Shown here: positions 9,317 to 28,029 of the stretch, in pieces
How positions within the stretch are numbered: the stretch's first letter is position 1
How the letters are laid out: each line of letters starts with the position of its first letter
Virus record (IMG/VR): IMGVR_UViG_3300042507_008101
Coordinates: 1-28,029 of that record
Strand: one strand, 5' to 3'
DNA: 28,029 nucleotides
Source: a virus
The notes under the pieces: generated by a model
Databases searched by the model: none
What the model was told of the DNA's origin: nothing
What the model saw: only the letters and a program-made list of their open reading frames with translations
Made by a program: the position numbers and the translations under genes

Positions 9317-9333
9317 CGGGCGGGAGCATTCAC
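9303..9333 (+). mobile_element. right end of the IS200/IS605-like element
   Basis: Stem CCCACTCGC (9303-9311) and GCGGGCGGG (9316-9324) with a TTTA loop, one A-C mismatch and one G-T pair, followed by AGCATTCAC (9325-9333). Hairpin plus TTCAC is typical of IS605-family right ends; the exact boundary is inferred. The TCA at 9330-9332 is the stop codon of the minus-strand tube gene that begins there. Confidence 0.7.
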
Positions 9334-9860
9334 GATTCTAAATATGCTCTATCATATCGAAGAGTCAAATCTACAGTAACAACATCGCTGGTACTCATAT
9401 CAAGATCGCCAAAATCGATAGAATTTGGCCACACATTCTCTAAAATCCACTTTTCTATGATGCTCCCACTGCCATCGTACAACTCTAGAAAGCATTTCCC
9501 CATTTTGAAGCCAGATGCACTAGGCTTCCAAGTAGATCCAGTTGATTTAACCTCATAGGACTTTTTGATCCAATCCATTACTGGGTTAGATTTCTTTTTA
9601 ATATCATATAAACTTAAATTTATCGGTTTCCAATCTGGTTTGCTTGGAAAGTAAATTGTTTCATTTAAATGTTGAGCGTCCATTTCTTTGAATGTTAATC
9701 CTGGTCTACCTCCTTTAAATGGAGGCAAACACGGACTACCTTCCCAAGCAGAGACATTTTCTATTTTGAAAAGCCATCTATTTTTACGCTTAAAACAAAC
9801 GTCTGGATCATTGAGTGCACCATCTCCATAATCCCATCCCATATTCATATTTTTTGCCAT
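9330..9860 (-). CDS. second tail tube protein (gp19-like paralogue)
   Basis: 176 aa, taking ATG 9860 (MAKNMNMGWDYGDG); an upstream in-frame ATG at 9995 would run through the terminator and the neighbouring gene. It is a clear paralogue of the 9940-10560 tube protein: CFKRKNRWLFKIEN against IFKRKYRWTFSLET, LELYDGSGSIIEKWILENVWP against LNLYDGCGSVLETWVLRHVWP (near residues 123-143), and VTVDLTLRYD against ATVEVTLRYS. Tube proteins of this fold stack as hexameric rings inside the sheath. A diverged copy could form a special ring (initiator, terminator or tube variant). Its last residue and TGA stop are made by the IS-like right end, so the native C-terminus was probably altered. AAATAATATT, not a Shine-Dalgarno, precedes the start. 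Confidence 0.8.
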   Translation of the reverse strand: MAKNMNMGWDYGDGALNDPDVCFKRKNRWLFKIENVSAWEGSPCLPPFKGGRPGLTFKEMDAQHLNETIYFPSKPDWKPINLSLYDIKKKSNPVMDWIKKSYEVKSTGSTWKPSASGFKMGKCFLELYDGSGSIIEKWILENVWPNSIDFGDLDMSTSDVVTVDLTLRYDRAYLES

Positions 9861-9881
9861 AATATTATTTAGTACAAATAT

Positions 9882-9918
9882 AAAAAAAAAGAAGCAAGAT
9901 TGCGAACAATCTTGCTTC
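9882..9918 (-). terminator. rho-independent terminator between the two tube genes
   Basis: Perfect 12-bp stem GAAGCAAGATTG (9891-9902) / CAATCTTGCTTC (9907-9918), CGAA loop. Read leftwards it is followed by nine T residues (A run 9882-9890 on +). It ends the tail transcript 22 bases after the main tube stop and isolates the second tube gene. Confidence 0.92.
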
Positions 9919-9939
9919 TTTAAATTAAAGCACTTTTGA

Positions 9940-10560
9940 TTACTTAGAGCTGCAACCCACGCAAGAGCAAGGAGCAAATGCTGCTTGGCAGCCATTCTTC
10001 TTTTTGTTGTACTCCACCTCAGAATATCTTAATGTTACTTCCACGGTAGCTTCGTCGCTACTGGCGTAATCAAGTTCTCCAAAACTAATAGATGTTGGCC
10101 AAACATGACGTAATACCCATGTTTCCAATACGCTTCCACATCCATCGTATAGGTTGAGGGTGCCAGTTCCGGCGTAGCCACCACCACCCGAATTCATGCC
10201 GCTACCCTTAACTGAAGATTGGTGCAGCCCTTTGCTGTCATGAAAAGCGTAGACTGTGCTCAGCCATCTATAAAGATTGCTTATGTCGTTTTCCCCGCCG
10301 CTACCATCTTGTACCAAAACGTCATAAAAGGTAACCGAAGTTGTTTGCCAAGCGGCTTTTCCTGGTATCCACATTTTACCATGCAAATAGTTTATTTCTG
10401 TTTCATCTATATCTATTTGTGGTCTATTTGCAACTTTAACAATGGTTTCTGGAATTTTGCCACAGCCCGTCTCCAGAGAAAATGTCCATCTATATTTTCT
10501 TTTAAATATGGTGTTGGCGTTCGACAACACTCCCAATCCCATGTTTATACCTGTACCCAT
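9940..10560 (-). CDS. 19: tail tube protein (gp19-like)
   Basis: A 206-aa protein with the T4 gp19/T4-like tube layout: an N-terminal IFKRKYRWTFSLE strand, a MWIPGKAAWQTTSVTFYDV central element, and a C-terminal WPTSISFGELDYASSDEATVEVTLRY region that is the hallmark of contractile-tail tube proteins. It directly follows the sheath gene, as in T4 (18-19). The C-terminus has an unusual Cys-rich tail (GCQAAFAPCSCVGCSSK, five Cys) not present in the second copy. AAGGAG gives strong translation; the leader before it carries a tandem TGATTTTTAA. A strong terminator follows. Confidence 0.88.
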   Translation of the reverse strand: MGTGINMGLGVLSNANTIFKRKYRWTFSLETGCGKIPETIVKVANRPQIDIDETEINYLHGKMWIPGKAAWQTTSVTFYDVLVQDGSGGENDISNLYRWLSTVYAFHDSKGLHQSSVKGSGMNSGGGGYAGTGTLNLYDGCGSVLETWVLRHVWPTSISFGELDYASSDEATVEVTLRYSEVEYNKKKNGCQAAFAPCSCVGCSSK

Positions 10561-16699: not shown

Positions 16700-16944
16700 T
16701 CAGACGTTACTTTTACGCTATATCCTAATTGTTCAAACTTTTTTCTGTGATCATCTACACATTTTAGATAGGCAGTTTCATAAACATCAGCTATCAATTT
16801 ATTAAGATCTTTCAAATCTTGTTCCGTAGCTAGGTGATATAATATTCTGTCTATTATATTTTCATTTCTACTAAATCTTTCTTTTAAAACTTCAAATATA
16901 TATTTTTTAATATAATGATTTCTTTGATTTTGTAAAAAGTCCAT
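16678..16944 (-). CDS. 88-aa helical hypothetical protein
   Basis: Its ATG overlaps the stop of the 1293-aa gene by one base (TAATG), so it is translationally coupled to it and presumably its partner. Nearly all helical and charged (KKYIFEVLKERFSRNENIIDR, in two helices, then EQDLKDLNKLIADVYETAY), with one Cys. It could be a chaperone or accessory for the large protein; that is inferred from coupling only. Confidence 0.6.
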   Translation of the reverse strand: MDFLQNQRNHYIKKYIFEVLKERFSRNENIIDRILYHLATEQDLKDLNKLIADVYETAYLKCVDDHRKKFEQLGYSVKVTSDHSKEGV

Positions 16945-19900
16945 TATTTAATTTCTTTTGCTTGTTTTATAAACTCTGATCTAACTTTAGTTTGCATAAA
17001 ACCCTGAAGTTTTGGAGCTTGTTCCACTGCGTATTTCGCCAGTTGCGTATTGCTTTTTGGCGGCTGGACTTCCATTAATTTTGCAAATTCTCCAAAATTA
17101 CTGGAAATTTTATTTAAAAAAGCTTCCATAGGATATTTTAGCCCTTGACCAAAATTAGACTTTCCACCCTTATGCCTTAAAATAATTTGAATTAAACTTT
17201 CTTTCTTTTTTGTGTCTACTGAACGTGTAAGGTTTATTAATAACTGTCGAATATAATCATACCACAGTAGAATTTTTGGACCTTGAGACACAAGTTTCTT
17301 ATCTACTTTATTAAAATAATTCTCACCTCCATAACTTTCATCTTCAATAATCTTCTCTATTTCTTTTGCAATAGCAAGCATGTTGTTGTAACCGGCTTCT
17401 ATTTGGGAATCTATTGGTATTTCTTGTTTTGGAGCAATTATTTTTTTACTTGCTTTTTTATTAAGCTCTTCTTTCTCAGCTTCGTAAACATTCTCTATGT
17501 GCGCTGGTATACTTGTATCACATTTTTGAATGTATGACAACAAGTCCTCGCCGTGACCACCAATCTTATCCATAGTGGTCTTATAATGTTGAGAGTATTG
17601 AGGAAAAGTACTAGCCCAGAAAGATAATAGATTTTTTTCTTCCACGTTTAAAATTTCAATAATTTTCTTGTGGTTAGAAACATCTATTTTATCTGAGTTT
17701 TCTGATAAAAACCTGAGTATATTAGAGGTGCTATAAAGTGCATTCATCAAATCATTTTTATTTTTTCTAAACACATATGGCTGTTTCGCATCAGAGTCGG
17801 GCATTTGTACTGTGGGCGTCCAGGTTTTACCTGTATTGCTGGTGAATACAATTTGATTGTTTGTATCAAAGAAAATAGACACAAACTGTGCTCTTTTTTG
17901 TTTATCAAAAGATTTATCATAAGCAAGAGGTTCAATATTATTAATATCTTCCTGAGGCTCTGTGGAGCTCTTAGGATTTCTCATAATCATGCTTTCGGTG
18001 CTTGTCCTTGATTTTCTTCCCTTGCTGCCAGTTGCTTCATTTTCCCTAGATAAAAATTTATCTGCCTCGCTACTAGCCCTGGTTTTTCTTCCCAAAGAAG
18101 TATAAAGATCTTCATCCCTAGCATTAAGATAAAAAACATCTACTATCTCATCATGGATTCTTTGAAAATCTTTTATGTATTCTCTTATGTCAACCCTATT
18201 GGCGTCCACTCCACTATATTTTTTCTTCAAAAATACAGCAGACATTCCTTCGACAATATCATTCCAGCCTGAAAGATTACCATAACCATCTTTTGTTGGC
18301 ACTATTTGATAATAGTGTTTAGCTGTACCTGTTCGATCCCACTTTGCTGTTAATTTGCCGCCTTTTCTTGCACCGCCAGTATCTCTATCTATTTCATCTG
18401 ACTCGTCTGATTCTTTTATGATTCTAAAATCTGATAGACTAAAGGATTCTTCTATATATCGACTTGAGCTTCGTGGTGCATCATCAGGTCCAGTATCCGA
18501 AAGATCATACTGTACGTACTTCATGGGAGATGCATCTTTTGGAACTAATTCTGGATTTCTTTTGAAATAATCCCAAGTTTCTTTTCCAATAACTAATCCG
18601 TCTGATCCCATTACTGGACTTCCTATTGGAAATATTTTTGCAAATCCTATTCTTGTTTCTTTATTATGGGGCGCCCCAGGCACCTGACTAGAAACTTCTG
18701 GTCTGAATCCCGTTATTCTAGTTCCCGGAAGACCATGGGAATATCTTGGAACTTTATAAAAATTATTTAATGTTGTTTCTTTTCCATCTTTTCCAATAAT
18801 TACCCCGCTTCTGGGTGTTGTCATCAGGCTTTTTTCTGGATCTTCTCCTAAAAATACTATTAGATTTTTAATTAAATCTTTAGTATTATCTTTAATTTTA
18901 TCAGAATTTAATAATTTTTCTAAATCATCAACAGAATCTAAATCTACAGAATCGGTGTTTATTTTTGATTTTTTAAGAGTAGAGAGTATTTTATTTTTTA
19001 ATTTAGATATTTCTATGGAATCTGTGTTTACAGAAGATCTAATAAAAGATGGAGTGTTTAATAATGGAACAGATCTTTCATTATCACCCTCTCCAATTTT
19101 CACATAAGGTAAAATTATTTTTGGAGAATCTCCTTCTTTTATTTTTCCATTTTTATCTTTTGTTTTTGCTGATCCTATTCTTAATTCTTCACCTTTAATT
19201 TTATATGGTATTCTGCCCGTCTTTTGAAAAGTCTCCCAATCCTCCTTACCAAGTATTTTTTCCAATTCTTCTCTATCCTTAGGGCTTATCTTCTCTAGTT
19301 CTTTTTTTCTTATTTCTTCATCTTTAACGGGATCTCCTGTTATTACTGAGGAAAGTATTTTTGGACCATGAACATTTTGTTGTCTAATTATCTCCTTGGT
19401 TCTTTCGTTTGAGAAATATTCTGCAAACATCTTTTTTAATTTAGTGTTATTAACAACGTTCCAGCCTGCTTCTCTATCACCAAGTGGAACTCCTGGCTGT
19501 GTCATCCAAGAAATAGTACGCATATCTATCTTGCCATTTGTTTTCCATTTTTCTACTTCATCATAATTATCATGAAATATATTTTTAAAAGCAGATTCAT
19601 CAACCTTGGATAAATCTTCTTTTGTTGCGTTTGGATTTTTAAGAATATATCGTATAAGCCACAGTCCGCTTTCCATTTCTTCTTTTTCTTTTGATGGAAA
19701 AGGGCTATTCTCTAACAACTCTGCAACTTTTGGATCACCCCAAGACCTCATTCCTTTATTGTTGTTTATAAATCTTGTTATAAAATTAGATATATTTCTT
19801 TGTATTGTGTTTTGAGCTTCTGTGTCATCAATATCTTGTAATTGTTTTATTCCGCTTCTCACTATTTTATAAGTTATATCTCTGTCATGCGAAGGATCAT

Positions 19901-20825
19901 CAGAAGGTAGGCTTCCATAATGTCTATGATAATTTAATGAATAAAGATTTTTAAGAGCCTCTCCCGCACCGCTGGACTTAGAAAAGTTAAAACCCCCTTC
20001 GGTGCCGCCACGACCATCGGTGCCAGACCCAGCTCTATATATAATGTCTTTTCCTCCCTTGGTTTTAACTTTTCTTGCATTGGATAAATCTATTCCATAT
20101 TTTCCATGTGATTCAAATTCTATATCTTTTCCATACACCTGACTAATATGATCTAATTTTGTTTTTATAGTATGCTCATCACCAGGAAGAGTTTCAAGTT
20201 TTTCTATGTATCTGTTAATATAAAATTTTATTTTTTTGTTTCCAACATAATATTCTTCTTGGTCTCCACCTTTTACATATATTACTATATGCTTGATTAC
20301 CTCGTGAATTAAATCTCTTATTGTTCTAAAGTTATCCTCATATCCTCTGGTGGAAGGATTTATTAAATCATAATTATCCATAACTTTATCAAGCCAAACA
20401 GATAGCTCTTCCCTATTTTCTTCTGAAGAAGAAGACTTTCCTCCATAATTATCGTATTTCCCCGCTATGCTTAGTATGAGATTTTTTAAATCACTCAGGT
20501 TTGAATCATTTATTGATATTCTTCTTTTAGACCGAACGCCACCAGCGGCGGTTTTTGATAAGCCAAATTTAGATTTGATCTCCGACAGCATCTCTCTAGT
20601 AATTCTATTTCTGATTTCTTGTCTATTTTTTAAAAGACTCCAAGTTTTTTGTATTCTTTGTTGTAAAGCTTCTTTCCAATGAGTTTGATCTATTTGATAA
20701 AGATAGTCTAAGTCTTCTTCATCTAATAATGTTGGGTTTTTAATATAAGTGCCTCTATTGGCTCTTGCTTCCAATAAAGTTATATAATCAAAATTTTTGG
20801 TAAAGAATTCTTTAAAGTTGTACAT
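16944..20825 (-). CDS. giant 1293-aa capsid-targeted internal-protein candidate
   Basis: The largest gene of the window. The N-terminus MYNFKEFFTKNFDYITLLEA fits M-x-x-F-x-x-F and holds an L-L-E|A site (17-20), as in T4 internal proteins cut by gp21. The rest is hydrophilic, Lys/Ser/Asp/Glu-rich, with just one Cys and no membrane segment. Regions: helical 20-130; a Gly-rich stretch near 275-305 (RAGSGTDGRGGTEGGF); helical/charged 320-560; a more compact part about 690-850 (VPRYSHGLPGTRITGFRP, IGSPVMGSDGLVIGKETW); a C-terminal helical half. No enzyme motif was recognised. AGGAAG precedes the ATG with TATAAAGT upstream. A protein packaged in the head and ejected with DNA is the favoured idea; a scaffold is the alternative. 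Confidence 0.7.
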   Translation of the reverse strand: MYNFKEFFTKNFDYITLLEARANRGTYIKNPTLLDEEDLDYLYQIDQTHWKEALQQRIQKTWSLLKNRQEIRNRITREMLSEIKSKFGLSKTAAGGVRSKRRISINDSNLSDLKNLILSIAGKYDNYGGKSSSSEENREELSVWLDKVMDNYDLINPSTRGYEDNFRTIRDLIHEVIKHIVIYVKGGDQEEYYVGNKKIKFYINRYIEKLETLPGDEHTIKTKLDHISQVYGKDIEFESHGKYGIDLSNARKVKTKGGKDIIYRAGSGTDGRGGTEGGFNFSKSSGAGEALKNLYSLNYHRHYGSLPSDDPSHDRDITYKIVRSGIKQLQDIDDTEAQNTIQRNISNFITRFINNNKGMRSWGDPKVAELLENSPFPSKEKEEMESGLWLIRYILKNPNATKEDLSKVDESAFKNIFHDNYDEVEKWKTNGKIDMRTISWMTQPGVPLGDREAGWNVVNNTKLKKMFAEYFSNERTKEIIRQQNVHGPKILSSVITGDPVKDEEIRKKELEKISPKDREELEKILGKEDWETFQKTGRIPYKIKGEELRIGSAKTKDKNGKIKEGDSPKIILPYVKIGEGDNERSVPLLNTPSFIRSSVNTDSIEISKLKNKILSTLKKSKINTDSVDLDSVDDLEKLLNSDKIKDNTKDLIKNLIVFLGEDPEKSLMTTPRSGVIIGKDGKETTLNNFYKVPRYSHGLPGTRITGFRPEVSSQVPGAPHNKETRIGFAKIFPIGSPVMGSDGLVIGKETWDYFKRNPELVPKDASPMKYVQYDLSDTGPDDAPRSSSRYIEESFSLSDFRIIKESDESDEIDRDTGGARKGGKLTAKWDRTGTAKHYYQIVPTKDGYGNLSGWNDIVEGMSAVFLKKKYSGVDANRVDIREYIKDFQRIHDEIVDVFYLNARDEDLYTSLGRKTRASSEADKFLSRENEATGSKGRKSRTSTESMIMRNPKSSTEPQEDINNIEPLAYDKSFDKQKRAQFVSIFFDTNNQIVFTSNTGKTWTPTVQMPDSDAKQPYVFRKNKNDLMNALYSTSNILRFLSENSDKIDVSNHKKIIEILNVEEKNLLSFWASTFPQYSQHYKTTMDKIGGHGEDLLSYIQKCDTSIPAHIENVYEAEKEELNKKASKKIIAPKQEIPIDSQIEAGYNNMLAIAKEIEKIIEDESYGGENYFNKVDKKLVSQGPKILLWYDYIRQLLINLTRSVDTKKKESLIQIILRHKGGKSNFGQGLKYPMEAFLNKISSNFGEFAKLMEVQPPKSNTQLAKYAVEQAPKLQGFMQTKVRSEFIKQAKEIK

Positions 20826-22738: not shown

Positions 22739-22882
22739 ATGGATTATTATTACATATTCTATAAAATATTAGAAGATCCGAGATGCATAAAGCATTACAA
22801 AGATCTGTTGTGTTATTATAAAAGTAAAAATAAACAAAATTTTATATCTGCAATAGAAAATTTGATTGAAAAAATAAAATGA
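22739..22882 (+). CDS. 47-aa hypothetical protein
   Basis: ATG 22739 to TGA 22882, the stop overlapping the ATG of the glycosyltransferase-like gene (ATGA). It is aromatic and Lys-rich: MDYYYIFYKILEDP, then CIKHYKDLLCYYKSKNKQ and a final AIENLIEKIK helix. This resembles small phage proteins of the type ...Y-K-x-a-i-x-Y-Y-k-x-x-g-k. The coupled stop/start and lack of other coding in the gap support it. Function unknown. Confidence 0.55.
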   Translation: MDYYYIFYKILEDPRCIKHYKDLLCYYKSKNKQNFISAIENLIEKIK

Positions 22883-23817
22883 ATGACAATCTATCTTTTT
22901 GTATTGTTGCAAAAAATAATGAAGAAACTTTGCCAAGCTGCATAGAATCTTTTTTTGATATCTGCAGAGACATTTCTTATGTTGACATGGGATCAACAGA
23001 TAAAACCGTAAGTATTTTGGAAAAATATAATGGCAAAAAATTTAAAAAAATAAATGAAGATTTTGCTTCAAATAAGAATCACTTAATAAGTAATGTTAAA
23101 AAAGATTGGTTGTTTTTCATTGAACCAAATGAAAAAATCATAAATGGTAAAAAAGAAATATTAGACATTGTCGGCAAAAAAGAAGGTGTGTTTAGCGTCT
23201 TACTTCTACAAAATGAAATTTTATCTAAATCAACAAGATTTTTTTGTGATAACAAAATAAAATTTGAAAATCCAATTTTTGAAACCATATATTCAAAATC
23301 TTCTTGCTCAAATATAATTTTGAAAGAGTCTGCGGCAATAGAGATCCCAGACGAATATGAAAAAATATTAAAATGGAAGGCTAAAGAGCCTTTAAAAACA
23401 CATCCTCTTTATTACGAATCATGTTTTTATATTAAAAATAAAAGATGGGAAGATTTTATTAAAACAGCTGAAAAATATCTTTTCATGGAAAAAGATACGA
23501 ATTTACCAAGCTACATTATGGTTAAATATTATCTTTCTTTAATTTTATTTTACACACAAAAAGATATTAAGAAATCTATTCAGACACTTGCGTTTTGTTT
23601 GGAAAAAAATCCCACTATGTCTGAATTTTGGTGTTTGCTCGGAGATATTAATTTTGAAATGAAAAAATATCAAAAAGCATATTATTTTTACGATAATGCT
23701 ATAATACTGGGATCTCAAAGATTAAATGGTGATGAACTGCCAATAGATGTTAAGAAATATAAAGAGTATCCAGATAAAATGAAAATTATATGCAAAGATT
23801 TAGTAGACAAAATCTAG
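22879..23817 (+). CDS. family 2 glycosyltransferase-like protein with TPR C-terminus
   Basis: 312 aa. The N-terminal part follows the TPR-GT2 pattern: FCIVAKNNEETLPSCIESF (7-25) for the nucleotide-sugar fold, VDMGSTDKT, and FASNKNHLISNVKKDWLFFI. In active members the next residues are D-a-D-E; here they are E-P-N-E (about 83-86), so the metal-binding DxD is replaced and catalysis is doubtful. The C-terminal half (about 200-290) has TPR-like helix pairs, e.g. KKSIQTLAFCLEKNPTMSEFW and LLGDINFEMKKYQKAYYFYDNA. It may act on surface sugars or virion proteins, or be a binding-only relative. It overlaps the convergent 23800 gene by 18 bases. Confidence 0.7.
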   Translation: MNDNLSFCIVAKNNEETLPSCIESFFDICRDISYVDMGSTDKTVSILEKYNGKKFKKINEDFASNKNHLISNVKKDWLFFIEPNEKIINGKKEILDIVGKKEGVFSVLLLQNEILSKSTRFFCDNKIKFENPIFETIYSKSSCSNIILKESAAIEIPDEYEKILKWKAKEPLKTHPLYYESCFYIKNKRWEDFIKTAEKYLFMEKDTNLPSYIMVKYYLSLILFYTQKDIKKSIQTLAFCLEKNPTMSEFWCLLGDINFEMKKYQKAYYFYDNAIILGSQRLNGDELPIDVKKYKEYPDKMKIICKDLVDKI

Positions 23818-24928: not shown

Positions 24929-25948
24929 ATGTCTGAAGAAGTGTTCCGCCCCAGAAAACCCGAAGAAAATTTAGAAAAATTGAATGCAGCTGAGTCTATT
25001 AGGCAGGCAGCAGCGGGCGAAGCAAAACGACCAGAAGGGCAAGCGCCTTTTGAGATCAAAGGAAATGTCCCGCCTGAATTTTTAAATGCTATGGGAATGC
25101 AAAATTCCCAGGCTACTTCAACAGCAAATTCAGACAGACAACCAGTAAGTGGAAATTTAAAAGATCTTCTTGAAGATCTAAAGCAGTCAACTTCTGTTTA
25201 TGAAGAAATAGAACTGCCTTCTAGGGGTGTTTTTTATGACGGAGAGAACGGTCCTGCTGATGGAATAGTTCATATTAGACCAATGACTGGAGAAGAGGAA
25301 CAAATTTTAGCCACTCCAAGGTTTGTCAGAAAAGGACAAGCATTGAATATGATATTCGCCAGATGTATAAAAGAAAAAATAAAGCCAGAAGATCTTTTGA
25401 CTGTTGATAGAACATATTTATTGATATACTTAAGAGGAATTTCTTATTCTCCATTATATGAAGTTGAAATAAAGTGCCCAGAGTGCGAAAGAAAGTTTTC
25501 AACAGAAATTGACTTGAACACTTTGATGGTTGAATCCTGCCCAGAAGGATATGGACCATCACTAGAAGGTGTTTTACCAACTTCAAAGTATGTTTTCAGA
25601 TACCGATTATCTAAAGGCAAGGATGAAACAGATATACAAGACCATCGAGATAGAAGAATCAAAAACTTTGGAGATAATTCAACAGATGACACGCTGATAT
25701 ACAGAACATCTATTTTAGTTGATGAAATACAAGGAATCACAGACAAGAGAGATCTTCAAACATTGATTAAAAATCTCCCAATTTCAGATGTTTCGCACAT
25801 AAGAAATTGTGTGAATGAACCGCCATTTGGTGTAGATACAAAAGTTGATATGGCTTGCCCGAGTTGCCTACAAGAGTTTGATGTTGATCTGCCACTTGAA
25901 GCAAATTTTTTCTTCCCGCGTCGGAGGAGGGAGAAAACACAAGCTTAA
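24929..25948 (+). CDS. baseplate hub protein, gp26-family (T4_baseplate)
   Basis: 339 aa against 208 for T4 gp26; the first ~85 residues are an extra polar, disordered-looking tail. The core from YEEIELPSRGVFYDGENG (about 91-108) through VHIRPMTGEEEQILATPRF, a DLLTVDRTYLLIYLRGISY element and CPECERKFSTEIDL is the typical order of the T4 baseplate family, which helps assemble the hub. Two Cys pairs (CPEC and CPSC) look like zinc ribbons flanking the middle domain. The C-terminus ends NFFFPRRRREKTQA after a slippery A AAT TTT TTC, from which a -1 shift would fuse it to the next gene. A late-type box and AGAAAGG precede it. Exact numbering (gp26 or a fusion equivalent) is uncertain. Confidence 0.75.
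   Translation: MSEEVFRPRKPEENLEKLNAAESIRQAAAGEAKRPEGQAPFEIKGNVPPEFLNAMGMQNSQATSTANSDRQPVSGNLKDLLEDLKQSTSVYEEIELPSRGVFYDGENGPADGIVHIRPMTGEEEQILATPRFVRKGQALNMIFARCIKEKIKPEDLLTVDRTYLLIYLRGISYSPLYEVEIKCPECERKFSTEIDLNTLMVESCPEGYGPSLEGVLPTSKYVFRYRLSKGKDETDIQDHRDRRIKNFGDNSTDDTLIYRTSILVDEIQGITDKRDLQTLIKNLPISDVSHIRNCVNEPPFGVDTKVDMACPSCLQEFDVDLPLEANFFFPRRRREKTQA
25903..25912 (+). promoter_or_regulatory. candidate -1 ribosomal frameshift site (AAATTTTTTC)
   Basis: In the reading frame of the baseplate gene this is A AAT TTT TTC, which contains two overlapping X-XXY-YYZ heptamers (A AAT TTT and T TTT TTC). A -1 slip enters an open frame that continues without a stop into the 25951-26130 gene. The purine-rich GGAGGAGGGAG (25923-25933) and the palindrome at 25938-25955 lie downstream. 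Confidence 0.5.
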
Positions 25949-25955
25949 GCTTGTG
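25938..25955. repeat. perfect 18-bp palindrome at the baseplate gene stop codon
   Basis: CACAAGCTTAAGCTTGTG; as RNA a 7-bp stem with a TTAA loop. The baseplate gene's TAA (25946-25948) is at its centre and the only plausible start of the next gene (TTG 25951) is in its right arm. It may influence termination, reinitiation or frameshifting. Confidence 0.7.
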
Positions 25956-26130
25956 GGAAAACCTGGCAGAAGAAATCTTCTTCTTTCAATACCACATGCG
26001 ACAAAGCATGAAAGATACCATGATCTTGCCCATTAACCTCAGAAAATGGTTAATACAAAGATACATACAACAAAAAGAAAGAGAGAATGAACAAATGGAA
26101 GCAGAAAGAAGAAAAATTAGAAAGAAATAA
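25951..26130 (+). CDS. tail-assembly-chaperone-like small protein, TTG start or -1 frameshift product
   Basis: The frame codes WENLAEEIFFFQYHMRQSMKD, then TMILPINLRKWLIQRYIQQK and a charged helix, 59 aa counted from TTG 25951. Pattern L-x-E-x-i-f-f-l-x-y-h ... d-x-x-x-m-P-i-x-x-R-x-w is what I associate with the small second domain of phage tail-assembly chaperone or hub-assembly genes. There is no ATG before 25996, which would cut off the first helix, and no ribosome binding site at fitting distance. The gene is therefore either reinitiated at TTG within a palindrome or translated as an extension of the baseplate protein by -1 shifting at 25903-25912. Three bases separate it from the next gene. 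Confidence 0.6.
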   Translation: MWENLAEEIFFFQYHMRQSMKDTMILPINLRKWLIQRYIQQKERENEQMEAERRKIRKK

Positions 26131-26888: not shown

Positions 26889-28029
26889 ATGGAAAAAATA
26901 TTTGTCAGCATAGCATCATATAGAGATTCTCAGTTAATACCAACGATAAAAGATTTATTAAATAAATCAAAATACCCAGATAATCTAACATTTGGTATAT
27001 GTTGGCAACACGGCGATGACGAAAATCTAGATGAGTTTAAAAGCGACCCAAGGTTTAAGATACTTGATATAAACTATAAAGATAGTAGGGGAGCTTGTTG
27101 GGCTAGGAGTAAAGTGCAGGAGCTATACTCTGGGGAGAAGTATTATTTCCAATTAGATTCTCATCACAGGTTTCTGCCAGAGTGGGATTCTAAGCTCGTA
27201 GAAATGTATTGTGGATTGAAATCCAACAAGCCTTTATTGACTGGTTATTGTACAGTTCTGGACATGCAGAATGATCAGAAATTAAATAATCAGCCTTTGA
27301 AAATAGTTGGATTTGAAACTTTTTCTCAAGATGGAAACTTGATGCTTAAGCCACATTATGTTGATGAATTTAAAACCTTGACCGATCCTATTCCCGCAAG
27401 ATTTGTTTCTGGGCATTTTGTATTCGTAGATGGTAAGTGGGTAGAAGAGTGTGGATATGATCCTAATTTGTACTTTCATGGAGAAGAAGTAAGTCTGAGT
27501 ATAAGATCTTACACACACGGATATGATTTGTTTCACCCTCACTATTCAATAATATGGCATCAGTACATCAGAGAGGGCAATAAGAAGCATTGGGACGATC
27601 ACACAAAAGATAATCCTTGGTGGAATCTCGACTCAAAAGCTAAAAAAAGACTAAGAAAGTTATTGCAACAAGAAGAAAATGACGAGCACTTGGGAAAATA
27701 CTGTTTAGGGACAGCCAGATCTTTTCATGATTATGAATTGTACACAGGAATTGATTTCAAAAATAAAAAAATAGGTTCCAAAGCCAAACGAGGACAAAAT
27801 CCTTACATAATGACAGAAGAAGAGTGGTCAAAAGATTTTGAAAATAAGTATAATTTAAACTTATCTTGGGATCCAAAAGATGTACCATCAAGAGATGATT
27901 GTGATTTTTGGTTCTTCGGAATAGAAGATGTTGACAATAAATTAATTTTTAGAAACGATTTTTTTCCTGAGAATAACAAAGAAATACTTGATAAAAAGAT
28001 CAGTAGATTTAATGCCGTCTTTGATTCTA
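26889..28029 (+). CDS. GT60-type (GlcNAc-transferase-like) glycosyltransferase, 3'-truncated by the window end
   Basis: Open for 380 codons to the window edge. AGGA at 26876-26879 precedes the ATG. The sequence follows the Glycosyltransferase (GlcNAc)/GT60 family: IFVSIASYRDSQLIPTI (4-20), FGICWQHGDD, DSRGACWARSKVQELYSGEKYYFQ, and the metal-binding QLDSHHRF, in which D-x-H takes the place of DxD. FVSGHFVFVDG and YFHGEEVSLSIRSYTHGYDL complete the catalytic domain (to about 230). Family members add GlcNAc to Ser/Thr of proteins, so virion-protein or host-surface glycosylation is likely. About 130 further residues form a C-terminal extension with FWFFGIEDVDN, of unknown role. Confidence 0.85.
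   Translation, partial: MEKIFVSIASYRDSQLIPTIKDLLNKSKYPDNLTFGICWQHGDDENLDEFKSDPRFKILDINYKDSRGACWARSKVQELYSGEKYYFQLDSHHRFLPEWDSKLVEMYCGLKSNKPLLTGYCTVLDMQNDQKLNNQPLKIVGFETFSQDGNLMLKPHYVDEFKTLTDPIPARFVSGHFVFVDGKWVEECGYDPNLYFHGEEVSLSIRSYTHGYDLFHPHYSIIWHQYIREGNKKHWDDHTKDNPWWNLDSKAKKRLRKLLQQEENDEHLGKYCLGTARSFHDYELYTGIDFKNKKIGSKAKRGQNPYIMTEEEWSKDFENKYNLNLSWDPKDVPSRDDCDFWFFGIEDVDNKLIFRNDFFPENNKEILDKKISRFNAVFDS

Follow-up and report, generated by a model that had tools for sequence, protein, structure and literature searches.

A probable programmed −1 frameshift at an invariant T TTT TTC site joins a T4 gp26-family gene to a small helical domain in mostly uncultivated phages

In a 28-kb IMG/VR virus record, the 3′ end of a T4 gp26-family gene is overlapped by a small open frame in the −1 phase, which raises the question of whether the two are decoded as one protein and what role such a product might play in tail assembly. 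We analysed the whole stretch of 28,029 nucleotides, hereafter the window, together with its relatives. Sequence comparison makes it highly probable that this locus encodes a tail assembly chaperone (TAC) in two forms by programmed −1 frameshifting, chaperone role included, with the shift itself more certain than the chaperone role. The features at issue are the following.

24929..25948, plus strand: TAC-N, the T4 gp26-family (PF12322) gene, 339 aa, the short product by standard decoding
25903..25909, plus strand: overlapping heptamer A AAT TTT, unconserved, intact in 31/38 representatives
25906..25912, plus strand: slippery heptamer T TTT TTC, the putative −1 shift site, in frame in 38/38 representatives
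25912..26130, plus strand: TAC-C, the predicted −1 extension, an all-alpha domain of 72 aa (LPASEEG...RKIRKK) plus stop
25925..25930, plus strand: AGGAGG, Shine-Dalgarno-like, 20 nt 5′ of TTG 25951, implausible as an initiation site
25938..25955, plus strand: perfect 18-nt palindrome CACAAGCTTAAGCTTGTG, spanning the zero-frame stop, its hairpin not conserved in the family

The identity of the upstream gene is well defined. Its zero-frame protein matches the Pfam family T4_baseplate (PF12322) with an E-value of 2.9e-18, scoring 66.8 bits, above the curated cut-off of 24.5, and the baseplate hub family phrog_150 with an E-value of 5.9e-22. AlphaFold was run on the N and C domains separately; the TAC-N model (pLDDT 90.7) has its BFVD matches among viral baseplate hub assembly proteins, and a PDB fold search with this model returned nothing significant. 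From 25901, the zero-frame codons read GCA AAT TTT TTC TTC CCG ... GCT TAA, with the TAA stop at 25946-25948, so that T TTT TTC ends 33 nt 5′ of it.

From 25900 the −1 frame runs without interruption to its stop at 26128-26130. As relatives we took the 80 nearest loci from an IMG/VR scan (52-94% identity), and thinning them to less than 90% identity left 38 representatives. Every one of the 80 keeps the overlap and the domain that it encodes, the −1 frame entering before the zero-frame stop and extending approximately 165-240 nt beyond it; the sequence-only reading, which had described a frame open through a small conserved domain, is thus borne out over 25900-26130 in the window and across the relatives. 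The −1 domains share the pattern (S)KFFLP..EEG..PSL.LW..LAEEIFFFQYHM...LPINLRKWMIERFI.QKE. Past the zero-frame stop, divergence by codon position is coding-like (0.36, 0.24 and 0.56), and the median dN/dS is 0.17 (0.22 among the least saturated pairs), values obtained from only 48 of the 300 sampled pairs. By these sequence measures, purifying selection acts on the −1 codons that follow the zero-frame stop.

AlphaFold predicts a compact three-helix fold for TAC-C (pLDDT 85.7), and a fold search among viral models found no significant match to it. A Pfam match to Tma16 (25912-26127; 34 of the 38 representatives), which in the window lies just over the gathering score, was judged spurious, as a charged helix matching a eukaryotic family. 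DUF6760, whose function is uncharacterised, weakly matches the C domain in 7/38 representatives (best E 0.0018), the window member falling below the cut-off; the resemblance lies at 25957-26106 and leaves a wider relationship of TAC-C possible. By eye, the C-terminal tail of T4 gp51 also resembles TAC-C (FTFYQINHTL..IPAERGFVLKLI), and a profile search for this resemblance was not significant.

Conservation at the junction identifies the candidate shift site. A double heptamer, A AAT TTT TTC, had been proposed, and both heptamers are indeed in frame in the window, but only T TTT TTC is conserved: A AAT TTT is broken in 7/38 representatives (AGT, CAAT, GAAT), which singles out T TTT TTC as the conserved site. 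The two slip codons are TTT in 38/38 and TTC in 38/38, although the 3′ part of the gene uses the two phenylalanine codons about equally (229 TTT versus 255 TTC across the representatives), and none of approximately 105 other conserved columns is codon-invariant. Across 18 lineages of less than 80% identity, which are not fully independent of one another, background codon use gives a chance of 8.7e-7 for all-TTT at the first slip codon and, with the same dependence among lineages, 1.5e-5 for all-TTC at the second. Elsewhere upstream in these genes, in-frame X_XXY_YYZ heptamers occur at a background of 0.0039 per codon. The constancy of TTC may partly reflect dual coding, since its C also begins the codon (Leu) read first after the −1 shift; the TTT codon precedes the shift, so that overlap with the −1 frame is unable to explain its invariance. 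The site is therefore kept at synonymous positions, as a functional slippery sequence was expected to be, including one position free of dual-coding pressure. Together, the layout retained in 80/80 relatives and the slip site retained in 38/38 representatives support the −1 fusion that the sequence-only reading had put forward.

We propose that most ribosomes would read the gp26-family frame to the stop at 25948, giving the short form TAC-N, while a minority would slip back one base with tRNA-Phe in both sites on T TTT TTC (25906-25912) and read on in the −1 phase as far as 26130. The resulting long form, TAC-NC, would comprise approximately 400 aa, with the junction ...LEANFF-LPASEEG.... If it works as lambda gpG/gpGT does, the chaperone would coat the tape measure protein with its N part and use the extra helical domain to bring in tail tube subunits; the N part and the extra domain would both leave afterwards.

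The downstream frame might instead be a separate small gene, reached by re-initiation or by a non-ATG start at TTG 25951, a reading that we regard as very unlikely. Termination-reinitiation is known to occur in phages, and TTG 25951, which has AGGAGG 20 nt 5′ of it, closely follows the zero-frame stop. This spacing, however, exceeds that of a normal Shine-Dalgarno sequence and makes TTG 25951, the sole bacterial start codon in the −1 frame of the window before the EEIFFF motif, an implausible start. Moreover, 18/38 representatives have no ATG, GTG or TTG between the slip site and the EExFF motif, and the scan of all 38 found no conserved start for the small frame, so an independent start is rejected for most lineages and the earlier observation that the domain lacks a proper start and ribosome site extends beyond the window. 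The −1 residues LP..EEG, encoded 5′ of any start, are also conserved, and a separate gene leaves the invariant TTT TTC unexplained. If the domain is joined by frameshifting, it should be annotated as a C-terminal extension and not as a gene of its own.

Two further explanations concern the T run itself. RNA polymerase slippage on AAATTTTTT would generate mRNAs of altered length whose standard translation gives the fusion; the run of exactly six T is invariant in the clade, and homopolymer slippage can yield products like those of ribosomal shifting. Nevertheless, for transcription to slip efficiently, a run of six T with flanking C is short, and the phase and codon context obey the X XXY YYZ rule exactly. 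Ribosomal slippage is, besides, what known TAC genes use (PMC5009743), and we consider the polymerase explanation very unlikely, about on a par with a separate gene. An assembly or sequencing indel, splitting one continuous gene at the homopolymer that does sit at the junction, has a negligible probability and is refuted by the comparative data: T TTT TTC is present, in the same phase, in all 57 distinct relative sequences listed, which come from many independent metagenomes, and the zero-frame tail (RR/KK...TQA stop) is retained in nearly all relatives.

Programmed frameshifting at T TTT TTC thus remains the preferred explanation, and its RNA context was considered as well. The local fold of 25903-25990 in the window is strong (z = −3.08), while the downstream fold in relatives has only slightly negative z values, and the downstream 75 nt yielded no consensus fold in the 38 representatives, in an analysis of pseudoknot-free structures. 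A conserved stimulatory hairpin is accordingly rejected, the strong hairpin of the window being lineage-specific. Since no consensus structure emerges among the relatives, frameshift efficiency may be modest.

Vladimirov and colleagues reportedly assigned T4 genes 26 and 51 as TAC-N and TAC-NC, with frameshifting said to occur in several T4-like groups. These are genes of the same kind as ours, a T4-like TAC with a C domain, but in T4 genes 26 and 51 are separate and lie on opposite strands, unlike the overlapping frames of the window. A passage in PMC12846349 cites Vladimirov, Gautam and Davidson (2022, Virology 566:9-15), a study in which TAC genes of T4-like phages were identified, for polyT −1 signals in the TAC-N genes of these phages. 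On the strength of that passage, the remark in the sequence-only reading that it knew of no such frameshifting for a gp26-family gene is out of date. The device is already known for phage TACs and already proposed for T4-like ones, and our finding is not new in kind, because polyT −1 signals in T4-like TAC-N genes have been described. If the −1 reading is correct, a large, mostly uncultivated phage lineage is added to the phages in which slipping ribosomes fix a tail-assembly ratio.

The parallel drawn earlier with lambda G/GT and P2 E/E′ also fits. Lambda likewise gains a C domain by a −1 shift close to where its short gene ends, and the low-level frameshift product is needed for tail assembly (PMC5009743), although this siphovirus has a different slippery heptamer. 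P2, a contractile-tailed phage, shifts by −1 at a T-run heptamer (T TTT TTG), but its E/E′ proteins belong to a family other than PF12322. According to PMC12846349, the TAC of Pseudomonas phage Adele and of Vandenendeviridae/Andersonviridae adjoins the tape measure and shifts by −1 at a conserved GTTTTT, with a −1 frame that is uninterrupted in all genomes; the conserved T-run site and uninterrupted frame resemble our case, in other phage groups. A 2016 review in NAR described G-T frameshifting as widespread except in T4 and listed a likely +1 case in HSTV-2 (PMC5009743).

Beyond the 80 relatives, both directions of joining are found. In the jumbo phages RAS14, Atu_ph07 and XaC1 a −1 open frame occurs at T TTT TTT or T TTT TTC, whereas in SP-15, LIS04, GXN1, Mel-JY01 and the uncultured LR756508 the second open frame lies in the +1 phase. 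Among 35 representatives of the Mel-JY01 clade, the junction reads TTT TTT TGG CCT in 31, CTT TTT TGG CCT in two and TTT TTT TAC CCT in two; 34 of the 35 have a long +1 frame, 20 of them without any start in its first 22 codons. Homology links the −1 domain of the window to the shifted domain in SP-15 (E 1.9e-9) and to the +1 domain in the Mel-JY01 clade (hhalign probability 97, E 1.7e-11). Because homologous C domains are joined by both shifts, we favour, with some reserve, a single TAC family with the same C domain, joined by −1 at T TTT TTC and by +1 (or −2) elsewhere, in which the direction of recoding changed, one or more times, at a shared U-rich position. If so, the protein product was kept through the change, and the homologous −1 and +1 solutions would allow the evolution of recoding direction to be tested in a natural setting.

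Several related observations accompany these comparisons. Joins in +1 (or −2) occur in loci L083 (4851-5087), L094-L173 and L084-L087 (Mel-JY01-like phages, SP-15, LIS04, GXN1), with junctions TTT TTT TGG CCT or TTT C. Annotation treats the C domain as a hypothetical gene of its own in Mel-JY01 and omits it in LIS04, and Alishewanella phage Slickus01 (L090 4714) has a PF12322-like gene without a clear slip site. Matches in bacterial assemblies are of the +1 form in 6/7 cases and of the −1 form in one, L177 (3001-3738), which has the same −1 site at 62% identity; its 13.5-kb contig was placed in a Neisseriaceae MAG, possibly a hint of the host or possibly a mis-binned phage contig.

Gene order in the wider family is consistent with the chaperone role. 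The classical place of a TAC gene is between the tail tube and tape measure genes. SP-15 has the order sheath, tube, PF12322 gene, small open frame and tape measure, and LIS04 and Mel-JY01 are laid out similarly, with the PF12322 gene between tail tube and tape measure. In the window, the tail tube genes lie away from the PF12322 gene, at 9330-10560 on the minus strand, as two adjacent overlapping genes (both phrog_4542) adjoining a sheath gene that is long, at 808 aa. The Pfam/PHROG matches of the window include no tape measure gene; a 1293-aa protein encoded at 16944-20825 on the minus strand, which has no Pfam/PHROG match at E < 0.05, could conceivably be one. The tail chaperone region is flanked by two glycosyltransferase genes, at 22879-23817 and 26889-28028 on the plus strand.
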